The notes beneath the pieces are model-generated. The model saw nothing but the letters and a program-made list of their open reading frames with translations, ran no database searches and was not told the DNA's origin. This document shows positions 44,389-47,852 of a stretch of DNA of 64,000 bases, piece after piece. Within the stretch, counting starts at the first letter, position 1. Every line of letters starts with the position of its first letter. Made by a program: the position numbers and the translations under genes. Source of the DNA: an uncultured Roseobacter sp. (lineage in GTDB: Bacteria; Pseudomonadota; Alphaproteobacteria; Rhodobacterales; Rhodobacteraceae); NCBI GenBank assembly GCA_947501635.1, contig CANMWT010000005.1, forward strand, positions 186,001 to 250,000. The letters run 5' to 3'.

Positions 44389-44949
44389 TTATTCTCCACG
44401 AGAAAGAGCAGCAACACCCGTGCGTGCCACTTCGGCAAGGCCTAAGGGGCGCATCAGATCTGCGAAAGCGTCGATTTTTTCCGGCGCGCCGGTGATCTCG
44501 AACACAAAGCTCTCAAGTGTGCTGTCGACGACGTTGGCGCGGAAGATATCGGCAAGCCGCAGCGCTTCGACGCGTTTGTCACCTTGACCTACGACTTTGA
44601 ACATCGCCAATTCCCGTTCAACACTTGCACCTTCGACGGTTAGGTCATGCACATCATGCACTGAAACGATCCGGCCCAACTGCGCCTTTATCTGTTCGAT
44701 GACCTGAGGGGTCCCGGAGGTGACGATGGTAATCCGGCTCAGGTGACCTGTGTGGTCGACTTCGGCCACGGTCAGGCTGTCGATGTTGTAACCCCGTCCT
44801 GAAAACAGGCCAATCACGCGCGCCAGGACACCCGGTTCATTTTCGACCAGAACGGCCAGAGTATGGCGCTCCACCACGTCGGAGAAAGTGGGGCGAAGGT
44901 TATAGGCGGAATGGCTGCTGGAGCCTTTTTTAATTTTTAGGGGTGACAT
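44389..44949 (-). CDS. ilvN: Acetolactate synthase small (regulatory) subunit
   Basis: A 186-aa regulatory subunit that binds valine and stimulates the large subunit in branched-chain amino acid synthesis. The ACT domain is at about residues 25-100 (HTLAVLVENEPGVLARVIGLF, with SGRGYNIDSLTVAEVD). The C-terminal ALS_ss_C domain follows (VELAMFKV-like and LRLADIFRANVVD). The ATG complementary to 44947-44949 is used; a longer GTG start at 44991 is possible. It is not directly next to ilvB: a plus-strand GFA gene sits between them, so it probably has its own promoter. Confidence 0.94.
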   Translation of the reverse strand: MSPLKIKKGSSSHSAYNLRPTFSDVVERHTLAVLVENEPGVLARVIGLFSGRGYNIDSLTVAEVDHTGHLSRITIVTSGTPQVIEQIKAQLGRIVSVHDVHDLTVEGASVERELAMFKVVGQGDKRVEALRLADIFRANVVDSTLESFVFEITGAPEKIDAFADLMRPLGLAEVARTGVAALSRGE

Positions 44950-45101
44950 GATTTGATCCCGTTTCGGTAAGATTGGAGCGGCAATCCGCACTGCGCCGGG
45001 CGCGGGTGCAGTGAACGGATGCTTTGATTTTGCTTGCTGTGTCCTGAAGGGTGCGTCAACCTATCGGCAAGACAGGAAAACAGCGAAGCATGGTGGCACT
45101 T

Positions 45102-45530
45102 ATGACTGAAACAACGCAAGGAACGTGCTTTTGCGGCGCAGTGCGGGTTGAGGTGACGGGCCCTGCTGTTGTCCAGGGCTTTTGTCACTGCACGAGTTGC
45201 CGCCGGTGGAGTGCGCAGCCGTTCATCGCCTATGCCATGTGGCCAAGCGATATGGTCCGCGTTATCGCGGGACAGGACACGCTTGCCCATATCGCCCGGA
45301 ATGCGGATTTGACGATGCACTTTTGCAGCGCGTGCGGCGGACATGTAATGGCTGTGTCCGGCAAGGCGGGGCTGACCGACGTGTTCCCGATGCAGTTGCA
45401 CGACTTTGACTTTGAACCTGCCGCTCATGTCAACTACGCCGAGCGCGTCATTGATATGCCCGACGGGCTGCCCAAGTTCCGCGACATGCCAGAGCGCGCG
45501 GGTGGCACTGGCGAGATGATCGCGGAATAG
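45102..45530 (+). CDS. GFA family (glutathione-dependent formaldehyde-activating enzyme-like) zinc protein
   Basis: A 142-aa zinc-binding fold. Cysteines are arranged as in the family: GTCFCGAVRV, FCHCTSCRRW and FCSACGGHV. True Gfa helps formaldehyde react with glutathione, but most members of this fold have unknown roles. The ATG at 45102 gives the usual MTETTQGTCFCG start; 45090 is an alternative. The gene lies on the opposite strand between ilvN and ilvB, converging with ilvB (26 bases between stops). Confidence 0.87.
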   Translation: MTETTQGTCFCGAVRVEVTGPAVVQGFCHCTSCRRWSAQPFIAYAMWPSDMVRVIAGQDTLAHIARNADLTMHFCSACGGHVMAVSGKAGLTDVFPMQLHDFDFEPAAHVNYAERVIDMPDGLPKFRDMPERAGGTGEMIAE

Positions 45531-45556: not shown

Positions 45557-47308
45557 TCACACTAGCACCGACCCTTTGGCGTCGATCACTCCTTGGGTTT
45601 CTGCTTCACCCAGCAGCATTTCGTTATGCGCTTTGCCCGACGGGATCATGGGGAAGCAGTTCTCATGTTTTTCAACCAGACAGTCGAAGATAACGGGCCC
45701 GTCATAGTTCAGCATTTCCATGATCGCATCGTCCAGATCATCCGGATCCGAGCAGATGATGCCTTTTGCCCCAAAAGCCTCTGCCAGCTTCACAAAGTCG
45801 GGCAGGGCATCCGACCAGCTGTGCGAATAACGCTCGCCATGCAACAGTTCTTGCCACTGCCGAACCATGCCTAAGCGTTCGTTGTTGAGGATGAACTGCT
45901 TGACGGGCAGGCGGTATTGCACGGCTGTGCCCATCTCTTGCATGTTCATCAGCCAGGACGCTTCGCCGGCCACGTTGATAACCAGCGCCTCCGGATGGGC
46001 AATCTGCACGCCGATCGATGCCGGAAAGCCATAGCCCATTGTTCCAAGACCGCCCGAGGTCATCCAGCGGTTGGGGTCTTCAAAACCCAGATACTGCGCG
46101 GCCCACATCTGGTGCTGTCCCACTTCGGTACAGATGTAACGGTCGTGCTTCTTGGTAAGCTCTTCAAGACGTGCCAGTGCATGCTGGGGTTTGATTGTCT
46201 TGCCAGACTGGGTGAACCGCAGGCAGTCGACTTTTTGCCATTCCTTGATTTTAGACCACCACTTTGCAACACCCTCGGCGTTGGTTTTGCGCCCGCGCGA
46301 CTTCCAGACCTTCAGGATGTCTTCGAGCACATGTGCAACGTCGCCAACGATGGGGATGTCGGTTTTTATCACCTTGTTTATTGATGAAGGGTCGATGTCG
46401 ATATGGGCCTTGGTCGATTTGGGGCTGAACGCATCAAGCCTTCCTGTAATGCGGTCGTCAAACCGCGCGCCGATGTTGATCATCAGATCACAGTCGTGCA
46501 TCGCCATATTGGCCTCATAAAGGCCGTGCATGCCCAGCATGCCGATCCATTTGTCACCCGACGCGGGATAACATCCAAGCCCCATAAGGGTGGATGTGAT
46601 CGGAAAGCCTGTGGCCTCGACCAGCTCGCGCAGAAGCTGGCTTGCAGCGGGGCCCGAATTGATGACGCCGCCGCCGGTGTAGAAAATCGGCTTTTTCGCC
46701 CTCTCCATGGCTGCGACCAGTTCAGTGATCTCTTCCATATCCCCTTTGAGCCGCGGCTGGTAATGGGATGTGGACGGTTTCGGCGGCATGTATGTGCCGG
46801 TGGCGAATTGCACGTCCTTGGGAATGTCCACCAGAACCGGGCCAGGGCGTCCGCTGGTCGCTACGTGAAAGGCTTCGTGAATGGTACCGGCAAGGCGGTC
46901 GGTTTCCTTGACCAGCCAGTTGTGCTTGGTGCAGGGGCGGGTGATGCCGACGGTGTCGGCCTCCTGAAAGGCATCAGAACCGATCATAAAGGTGGGGACC
47001 TGACCAGTAAGAACCACAAGCGGGATCGAATCCATCAATGCATCTGTCAGTCCGGTGACCGCGTTCGTGGCACCGGGGCCTGATGTTACCAGAACAACAC
47101 CCGGTTTGCCCGTTGCTCGCGCGTAACCTTCTGCGGCGTGAACCGCGCCCTGTTCGTGACGCACCAGAATATGGCGAATCGCGTTTTGCTGAAACACCTC
47201 ATCATAGATGGGTAGTACGGCACCGCCCGGATAGCCAAAGACAGTATCCACGCCCTGATCGATCAGCGCTTGGACAATCATTTTCGCACCAGACATTTGC
47301 CGTGACAT
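45557..47308 (-). CDS. ilvB: Acetolactate synthase large (catalytic) subunit
   Basis: A 583-aa ThDP enzyme that makes acetolactate or acetohydroxybutyrate, the first common step of Val, Leu and Ile synthesis. The activating Glu is in VRHEQGAVHAAEGYAR. The central FAD-type domain covers about 195-340. The ThDP/Mg motif starts at VINVAGEASW (a GEA variant of GDG/GDA) and runs to NNERLGMVRQWQ. The start ATG is complementary to 47306-47308. Upstream is a leader peptide and terminator arranged as a classical attenuator, so expression should rise when branched-chain aminoacyl-tRNA is scarce. Confidence 0.96.
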   Translation of the reverse strand: MSRQMSGAKMIVQALIDQGVDTVFGYPGGAVLPIYDEVFQQNAIRHILVRHEQGAVHAAEGYARATGKPGVVLVTSGPGATNAVTGLTDALMDSIPLVVLTGQVPTFMIGSDAFQEADTVGITRPCTKHNWLVKETDRLAGTIHEAFHVATSGRPGPVLVDIPKDVQFATGTYMPPKPSTSHYQPRLKGDMEEITELVAAMERAKKPIFYTGGGVINSGPAASQLLRELVEATGFPITSTLMGLGCYPASGDKWIGMLGMHGLYEANMAMHDCDLMINIGARFDDRITGRLDAFSPKSTKAHIDIDPSSINKVIKTDIPIVGDVAHVLEDILKVWKSRGRKTNAEGVAKWWSKIKEWQKVDCLRFTQSGKTIKPQHALARLEELTKKHDRYICTEVGQHQMWAAQYLGFEDPNRWMTSGGLGTMGYGFPASIGVQIAHPEALVINVAGEASWLMNMQEMGTAVQYRLPVKQFILNNERLGMVRQWQELLHGERYSHSWSDALPDFVKLAEAFGAKGIICSDPDDLDDAIMEMLNYDGPVIFDCLVEKHENCFPMIPSGKAHNEMLLGEAETQGVIDAKGSVLV

Positions 47309-47360
47309 GTTCTTCGTTCTCCGTTTTGGTCCGTTTCGGACCCGTTTCGCTCTTGCGCAT

Positions 47361-47388
47361 AAAAAAGCCCCCGTTTTTCGGCGGGGGC
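47361..47388 (-). terminator. Attenuator terminator of the ilvB leader
   Basis: On the minus strand GCCCCCG, eight-base loop, CGGGGGC forms a 7-bp all-GC stem followed by six T, 52 bases before the ilvB start and 25 bases after the leader peptide stop. Confidence 0.88.
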
Positions 47389-47429
47389 GCATGGGGTAGA
47401 TTATGGATTTCCGTTACCGGCCCATGCGC
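47387..47429 (-). promoter_or_regulatory. Competing (antiterminator) stem in the ilvB leader
   Basis: On the minus strand, GCGCATGGG (47429-47421, inside leader codons 11-14) is perfectly complementary to CCCATGCGC (47395-47387). The second arm shares two bases with the terminator's 5' arm. A ribosome stalled at codons 4-8 leaves the first arm free to pair; a ribosome at the stop codon covers it. This is the expected logic of attenuation, inferred from base pairing only. Confidence 0.65.
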
Positions 47430-47461
47430 TTGTTTCTCACAATGACGACTAGTTCAGTCAT
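47414..47461 (-). CDS. ilvB leader peptide (attenuator), 15 aa
   Basis: A 15-codon frame on the minus strand reads MTELVVIVRNKRMGR and then TAA. Five consecutive codons (4-8: CTA GTC GTC ATT GTG) are Leu, Val, Val, Ile, Val, exactly the end products of the pathway that starts with ilvB. AGAGGA lies about nine bases before the ATG, and a sigma-70-like promoter lies just upstream. The composition, position and following terminator make this a branched-chain amino acid attenuator of the kind known for enterobacterial ilv operons and predicted in alphaproteobacteria. It is too short for routine gene finding. Confidence 0.85.
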   Translation of the reverse strand: MTELVVIVRNKRMGR

Positions 47462-47490
47462 TTCCAAAGCTTCCTCTTGCTTCGCGCGAC

Positions 47491-47517
47491 ATTATGAGCG
47501 GGTTGCAGGGCCGTCAA
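47491..47517 (-). promoter_or_regulatory. Candidate sigma-70 promoter of the ilvB leader
   Basis: On the minus strand TTGACG (47517-47512), 15 bases, CATAAT (47496-47491). The spacing is a little short. Transcription would begin near 47484, just before the leader's ribosome site. The rest of 47518-47852 shows no gene. Confidence 0.45.
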
Positions 47518-47852
47518 CACCGAAAGCGGCGAAATTAATGTCTCTGAGCGAGAAAAATGCGACATTTTCTTTCATTTTGCGGCCAGAGGTCGCAATTAAA
47601 GAAAATTGACAGGGGAATTCGGGCTGGAAAGACCTTTGCGACGCGCGGGCATTTGCTGTGGCGATGCTCCAGGGTCACAGGGTGCGTGTGAAACCCCAAC
47701 AGGTAGCATCGATAGGCGCGCGGATGCCGGGGTTGCGGGCGGCATCAGCAGCGGGCCATAGCGAATGGTGTAAAGCAGAGGGTTTCAGCGGTTGCAGTTG
47801 CCGTGCCCTTTAACGAGGCAGTCCAGCAACGCAACCGAAACGGACGGGCGCT

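Follow-up and report, generated by a model that had tools for sequence, protein, structure and literature searches.

The DNA in front of ilvB in the 64,000-nucleotide stretch of an uncultured Roseobacter sp. genome analyzed here (the window) very probably encodes a ribosome-mediated branched-chain amino acid transcription attenuator which controls ilvB. An attenuator of this type had been proposed in the original prediction, and the features that speak for it were recovered, namely rare control codons, conserved stems, a terminator and ilvB (NF006581) downstream. The ilvB product catalyzes the first step that the syntheses of valine, leucine and isoleucine have in common, and ilvN is the next gene on the minus strand. 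Such regulation is ordinary in kind; its compact and strongly conserved layout is unusual. Three features seem worth following: the 2-3 nt boundary between the stem P1 and the terminator, the leader stop codon in a mini-hairpin and the sharing of the element with an efflux gene.

Anatomy of the leader in front of ilvB

All parts of the leader listed in the original prediction were read on the minus strand (47517-47361): a promoter-like pair TTGACG/CATAAT, an AGAGGA site, a 15-codon peptide with Leu-Val-Val-Ile-Val at codons 4-8, a 9-bp arm pair touching the terminator and a 7-bp GC terminator followed by six T (Table 1).

Table 1: Features of the ilvB leader region in the window, and of two Atu_C8-type leaders (positions of the latter refer to their own loci)
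Feature	Position	Strand	Basis or remark
-35-like TTGACG	47512..47517	-	read directly; TTGAC in 95/95 aligned loci
-10-like CATAAT, 15-bp spacer	47491..47496	-	read directly and aligned loci
Shine-Dalgarno AGAGGA	47472..47477	-	read directly
Leader ORF MTELVVIVRNKRMGR with stop, 15 codons	47414..47461	-	read directly and aligned loci
Control codons 4-8, CTA GTC GTC ATT GTG (Leu-Val-Val-Ile-Val)	47438..47452	-	
Arm 2 of P1, GCGCATGGG	47421..47429	-	in leader codons 11-14; P1 has 9 bp
Mini-hairpin P2, CCG-GTAA-CGG	47411..47420	-	stop codon TAA in loop
Arm 3 of P1, CCCATGCGC	47387..47395	-	ends two bases into terminator stem
Boundary GC common to P1 and terminator stem	47387..47388	-	overlap count over 95 loci
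Intrinsic terminator hairpin, 7 bp, GCCCCCG-8 nt-CGGGGGC	47367..47388	-	
T6 tract	47361..47366	-	directly after terminator hairpin
ilvB, acetolactate synthase large subunit	45557..47308	-	NF006581, 1135 bits, cut-off 974
ilvN, acetolactate synthase small subunit	44389..44991	-	NF008864; limits of the listed ORF, true start may lie inside
Atu_C8-type leader, L216	1757-1876		before Bcr/CflA-like MFS gene
Atu_C8-type leader, L218	1501-1620		before Bcr/CflA-like MFS gene

The window leader folds with -42.5 kcal/mol, compared to a mean of -31.1 kcal/mol for shuffled sequences (z -3.11; 1 of 200 shuffles was as good). Its MFE structure shows a hairpin at the leader start codon and contains no segment 1 able to pair with segment 2. 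Between P2 and arm 3, a possible further hairpin (P3) is absent from the window; over the set, the P3 region has a mean of -1.13 kcal/mol compared to -0.37 kcal/mol for shuffles. A consensus scan, which asks for a spacer of 16-18 bp (here 15 bp), called no promoter at the leader. The window leader has no match at gathering score in Rfam 15, and a search of 47300-47560 at E values up to 10 gave only weak matches to Atu_C8, RF_site8 and Hrs1, all below their gathering scores.

Some smaller features lie around arm 3 and the T-tract. Within arm 3, the ATG at 47392 of the window is the start of a 611-residue ORF in the ilvB frame, and a gene caller could misplace the ilvB start into the terminator region here. 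The letters ATGCGC stand directly after the T-tract (47360-47355). A 5-letter complement of the start of arm 2 is found not more than 14 nt past the T-tract in 31 of the 95 aligned loci, compared to 0.5% of sequence windows further downstream.

Conservation of the element in Rhodobacteraceae

Upstream DNA of ilvB was collected from 30 genome loci and 80 named loci (110 in total), which gave 108 distinct upstream stretches. Seven of these belong to other families of the class (L024-L030). The remaining 101 consist of 23 loci of the window's family and 78 named loci, mostly titled Rhodobacteraceae or one of its genera; a few carry only the title Rhodobacterales, Paracoccaceae or Alphaproteobacteria, and one is a Maritalea. 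The named loci were picked by similarity to the IlvB of the window and are therefore a non-random sample. The element precedes ilvB in 97 of the 101 distinct loci: 95 were anchored by pattern, L098 holds a divergent copy, and in L105, which is truncated at a contig end, the element is still visible. No such element was found upstream of ilvB in L072 and L089, by pattern and by eye, and L022 and L023 of the window's family have different branched-chain leaders with other stems in front of ilvB. The leader peptides of the latter two are MRHNVVLI and MNGILVLCWRGDRAA. Missing conservation in close relatives had been posed as the refuting test for the original prediction; the opposite was found, as both the peptide run and the stems are kept. 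A chance origin of the leader element is ruled out by this conservation.

The promoter-like and translation signals are kept over the aligned loci. All 95 of them have TTGAC at a distance of 36-70 nt before the assumed start of the leader, and 7% of shuffled sequences hold it. The best spacer to a -10 element is 15 bp in 74 loci, 17 bp in 19 and 16 bp in 2. A Shine-Dalgarno core (GGAG, AGGA or GAGG) precedes the leader in 86/95 loci, and the distance from the start codon to the arm, under the start-scoring rule, is 11 codons in 91 and 12 codons in 4 loci. The richest six consecutive codons of the leader, with the start codon counted as read, hold five codons for Leu, Val or Ile in 87/95 loci, six in 7/95 and three in 1/95. 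A sensitive attenuator would use rare control codons. CTA makes up 66% of the leader Leu codons compared to 2.2% in the corresponding ilvB genes, and GTA 42% of the leader Val codons compared to 4.9%. The stop codons differ as well: TAA ends 82 leaders, TGA 10 and TAG 3, whereas TAA, TGA and TAG end 38, 47 and 10 of the ilvB genes of the same loci. The leader of L066 already stops before arm 2, and in L098 the stop codon lies in the P2 stem.

For the analysis of the stems we used an alignment of 95 rows (A1; 88 distinct), from which L081 was dropped by the T-tract pattern and to which L098 was added. Paired cells amount to 99.2% in P1, 94.3% in P2 and 98.5% in the terminator, and one P1 position is unpaired in 6/95 rows. 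Six pairs are changed on both sides over inner P1, P2 and the terminator. The mean for shuffled alignments is 1.1, none of 500 shuffles reaches six and slid controls give 1-4. In P1, a single pair is changed on both sides. This pair changes from G-C to A-U in 4/95 rows (L011, L014, L034, L039), by which Arg becomes His in the leader peptide; for P1 alone the covariation is thin. Wobble occurs at one P1 pair in 2/88 rows and at terminator pair 51:69 in 23/88 rows. The boundary columns 48 and 49 and the partner column 3 are invariant, and column 2 varies in one row. In P2, both sides are changed at two pairs. The P2 loop reads GTAA in 80/95 and GTGA in 8/95 loci, both of GNRA type, and seven rows differ. 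P2 is a conserved mini-hairpin, and the leader stop codon lies within it, in most loci in the GNRA-type loop. The compact layout of one arm pair plus terminator, as originally described, was found again; the conserved mini-hairpin between the arms had been missing from that description.

A covariance model built from A1 (R1) matches 354 of 394 genomes of the window's family at E <= 0.01, 23 of them more weakly than 1e-5; some of the 394 genomes also supplied sequences for the model. The downstream gene was checked at the 57 best-scoring family loci. At 56 of them ilvB lies 33-93 nt from the element, and one is followed by an MFS gene. R1 also matches 123 of 385 class genomes at E 0.01, far above what this E-value permits. 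The short calibration thus seems lenient, and no weight was put on weak matches. At ilvB outside the family, 33 loci (L024-L030, L219-L244; L245 and L246 were left out of the search) were without an R1 match at E 0.1; of L022 and L023, searched together with them, L022 scored 13.4 bits. The window's own genome has no second strong R1 copy (next best E 0.04). Two strong copies were found in 2 of 35 family genomes searched, G058, where both precede ilvB, and G335. The exact P1 pattern occurs in 10/385 class genomes. Five of these are Rhodobacteraceae, including that of the window (inner letters CCGGTAACGG), and one match is an efflux leader (G516). The other four lie in unrelated sequence and were read as chance.

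Occurrence of the element at Bcr/CflA-type efflux genes

Over the 385 class genomes, R1 gave strong matches outside the window's family. Fourteen of these loci were read (L143-L156; L157-L167 were left out), and 11 of them (L143-L153) precede one family of MFS transporters; L154-L156 do not resemble the element. The order to which G557 belongs, with R1 matches in 9 of 17 genomes, contributed eight more efflux loci (L204-L211). Together with three plasmids (L213-L215), this gave a table of 22 efflux-gene elements. The transporters encoded there share 51-65% identity with the one of L148, and the five that were scanned match TIGR00710 (Bcr/CflA efflux) above cut-off. A 23rd case, L176, comes from the window's family: its genome, G335, has its other R1 copy at ilvB. 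L176 has an ilvB-like leader (MKQIVIVVGRMRMGR, followed by a stop) and a score of 81.7 bits, and its downstream MFS gene product shows 56% identity. The efflux-gene leader peptides are Val-rich. Central mismatches in arm 2 of these leaders often go along with an unaltered arm 3, which hints that arm 3 may be constrained beyond pairing.

Among 26 matching plasmid records, six were examined. Three carry a clear R1 element, L216 carries the Atu_C8 form, and L212 and L217 show no convincing leader match. R1 scores are 70.2 bits for pTB1 of Roseobacter denitrificans, 65.1 bits for pP14_b of Phaeobacter piscinae and 54.9 bits for the Leisingera caerulea plasmid. All three are typed conjugative, with leaders such as MTVKFVVVVSKRRMVR (followed by a stop). 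In Leisingera, a chloramphenicol phosphotransferase gene lies near the efflux-gene element.

Two leaders match the Rfam family Atu_C8 (RF02502, "Rhizobiales sRNA"): that of L216, from Rhizobium lusitanum, with 111.5 bits and that of L218 with 98.8 bits. Both stand in front of a transporter of the efflux type described above, with 48% and 54% identity. Read by eye in both loci, Atu_C8 resembles the window element in its Val-rich leader with RMG, in the arms GCGCATGGG:CCCATGCGC and in the stop codon in an inner hairpin loop, followed by a terminator. It differs in its position before a Bcr/CflA-like MFS gene and in its terminator, which by eye lies 7 nt from P1. The window leader stays under the Atu_C8 gathering score (16.8 bits compared to 50, E 0.78), and R1 gives L216 only 20.7 bits. 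Judged by eye, common descent of the R1 element and the Atu_C8 form is likely. That the Atu_C8 "sRNA" may in fact be an attenuator-like leader is a lead from these sequences.

A wider reading is tentative, and we rather doubt that it holds in full: P1, P2 and the terminator may form a portable alphaproteobacterial switch for ilvB and a Bcr/CflA-type efflux gene, on chromosomes and on conjugative plasmids, which would be induced there by ribosome stalling through valine limitation or ribosome-targeting drugs. In rhizobia, Atu_C8 would represent this switch, and a second, sequence-specific role beyond pairing would be indicated by the near-invariant letters of P1. L176 adds to the sharing of the element, not to the other parts of this reading.

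Overlap of P1 and the terminator and the proposed mode of control

The full P1 and the full terminator overlap by 2 nt in 78 of the 95 loci, including the window, by 3 nt in 15, by 1 nt in 1 and by 5 nt in 1, with terminator stems of 6-10 bp. With an overlap of 2-3 nt both helices can coexist, because the common part is the terminator base only. In the folding model, the originally proposed blocking of the terminator by the arm does not amount to strict mutual exclusion, and the exchange between the two states is near-isoenergetic. In nearest-neighbour folding, the full terminator with a shortened P1 is favoured over the full P1 with a shortened terminator by a mean of 0.86 kcal/mol, and in 78/95 loci. 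A penalty of 2 kcal/mol on the last terminator pairs lowers the full terminator of the window from 89% to 24% of a two-state mix; this penalty is a stand-in for the melting of the RNA-DNA hybrid and serves as illustration, not as measurement.

When folding of the window leader is constrained by a ribosome at the stop codon, the pairing is 0.00 for P1 and 1.00 for the terminator base pairs. Without ribosome, the two base pairs of the terminator reach 0.73. They drop to 0.14 and 0.09 with the ribosome at codons 4 and 5, and are at 0.84, 0.84 and 1.00 with the ribosome at codons 6, 7 and 8, so that no steady trend with ribosome position is seen; at codon 8, the assumed footprint covers outer P1 letters. 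Of the two states, the one with the ribosome at the stop codon is clearly backed by the folding model, the stalled one only partly.

Among the closest known systems are the ilvBNC operon of Corynebacterium glutamicum (PMC11857589) and the ilvB-II motif of Corynebacterium (PMC10272879). As described in the former paper, from 2025, ilvBNC has a "fast" attenuator with the leader MTIIRLVVVTARRLP, in which adjacent terminator and antiterminator hairpins overlap at GCC and mutations of the terminator base raise expression. The common boundary trinucleotide is called a hallmark of ilvBNC there, with an origin that needs separate study (PMC11857589). The window and C. glutamicum ilvBNC both have a 15-residue leader with a Leu- and Val-rich run (LVVV in C. 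glutamicum) before ilvB and adjacent hairpins with common boundary letters. The boundary described in the C. glutamicum paper is a trinucleotide, whereas here it has three nucleotides in only 15/95 loci and two in the window. Unlike in C. glutamicum, no start-proximal anti-antiterminator is established here, the leader stop codon lies in a conserved mini-hairpin, and the element belongs to another phylum and is also found at an efflux gene. A boundary of two or three letters, kept in 93/95 loci at the same gene in another phylum, offers a natural data set on how small an overlap can control termination.

By analogy to this system and from the geometry, we consider a boundary exchange (the "fast" mode of antitermination) reasonably likely for the window. 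RNA polymerase would start just downstream of CATAAT, and a ribosome would trail it through the 15-codon leader, with charged leucyl-, valyl- and isoleucyl-tRNA as the signal. If charged tRNA is plentiful, the ribosome would arrive at the stop codon in the P2 loop and cover arm 2 and P2. P1 could then not form, the terminator would close fully against the U-tract and transcription would end. A ribosome stalled in codons 4-7 would leave arm 2 free, so that P2 and then P1 could fold before the 3' arm of the terminator is made. P1 would take the boundary GC which is needed for the last two terminator base pairs beside the U-tract, and polymerase would read through into ilvB. Termination may already be prevented when these two pairs are missing, or when P1, lying flush with the terminator, crowds the exit channel. 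As no segment-1 protector is seen, an untranslated leader should read through.

In classical attenuators, segment 1:2 serves for pausing or timing. In the main rival explanation, P1 would be such a pause or timing hairpin, and termination would follow the distance between ribosome and polymerase instead of a competition between P1 and the terminator. The coexistence of both helices in folding agrees with it, and so does the Atu_C8 form, where P1 of the same letters is separated from the terminator by 7 nt by eye and cannot compete. However, at ilvB the overlap of 2-3 nt is kept in 93/95 loci, and the similar arrangement in C. glutamicum is backed by mutations (PMC11857589). We regard this rival as rather unlikely. 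Another rival is an attenuator of the fully classical kind, with mutual exclusion of P1 and the terminator over most of the terminator 5' arm. Leader, terminator and gene would fit it, and the other leader of L022 has, by eye, a segment complementary to the terminator 5' arm. It is disfavoured and very improbable here, as the overlap of 2 nt in 78/95 and 3 nt in 15/95 loci stands against stems of 6-10 bp.

The invariance of P1 raises another alternative, namely that the main product is a short terminated RNA or a peptide which acts in trans, with attenuation as a secondary effect. Both P1 arms are nearly invariant beyond what pairing needs (wobble in 2/88 rows compared to 23/88 at the terminator pair), the efflux leaders L144, L146, L148, L149 and L150 keep arm 3 as CCATGCGCC despite central mismatches in arm 2, and Rfam lists Atu_C8 among the sRNAs. 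Wherever the gene was checked, though, ilvB or the efflux gene follows directly on the element, which carries regulatory codons; this makes a main role in trans improbable.

Ribosome position in the leader peptide decides termination in the four-segment attenuator of the E. coli trp type. It would do so in the window as well, but with one arm pair plus terminator, an overlap of 2-3 nt and no 1:2 protector seen. In alphaproteobacteria, branched-chain attenuators were reportedly predicted for ilvIH by Vitreschak in 2004. Attenuation of acetolactate synthase genes in this class is already known, and the window holds a compact variant of it: ilvL attenuation is given for Caulobacter crescentus ilvBN, citing Tarleton 1994 (PMC4117421), and a cis element is listed for Sinorhizobium ilvIH, citing Vitreschak 2004 (PMC2573895). 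Like the window, these systems have a leader coding sequence and attenuation before acetolactate synthase genes. Among the matches listed from open-licence literature, neither Atu_C8 nor the efflux leader nor the element of Rhodobacteraceae is named in a title or abstract opening, and term searches in PMC2965389, PMC3738593 and PMC4833913 gave nothing on the ilvB leader.

Between ilvB and ilvN of the window, a gene of the GFA family (PF04828, 64 bits) is located on the opposite strand (45051-45530, plus strand). A match to this gene was found in only 2 of the 110 ilvB loci (flanks of up to 1.5 kb), the window's own and L063. Attenuator readthrough reaching ilvN would cross the GFA gene in antisense direction.
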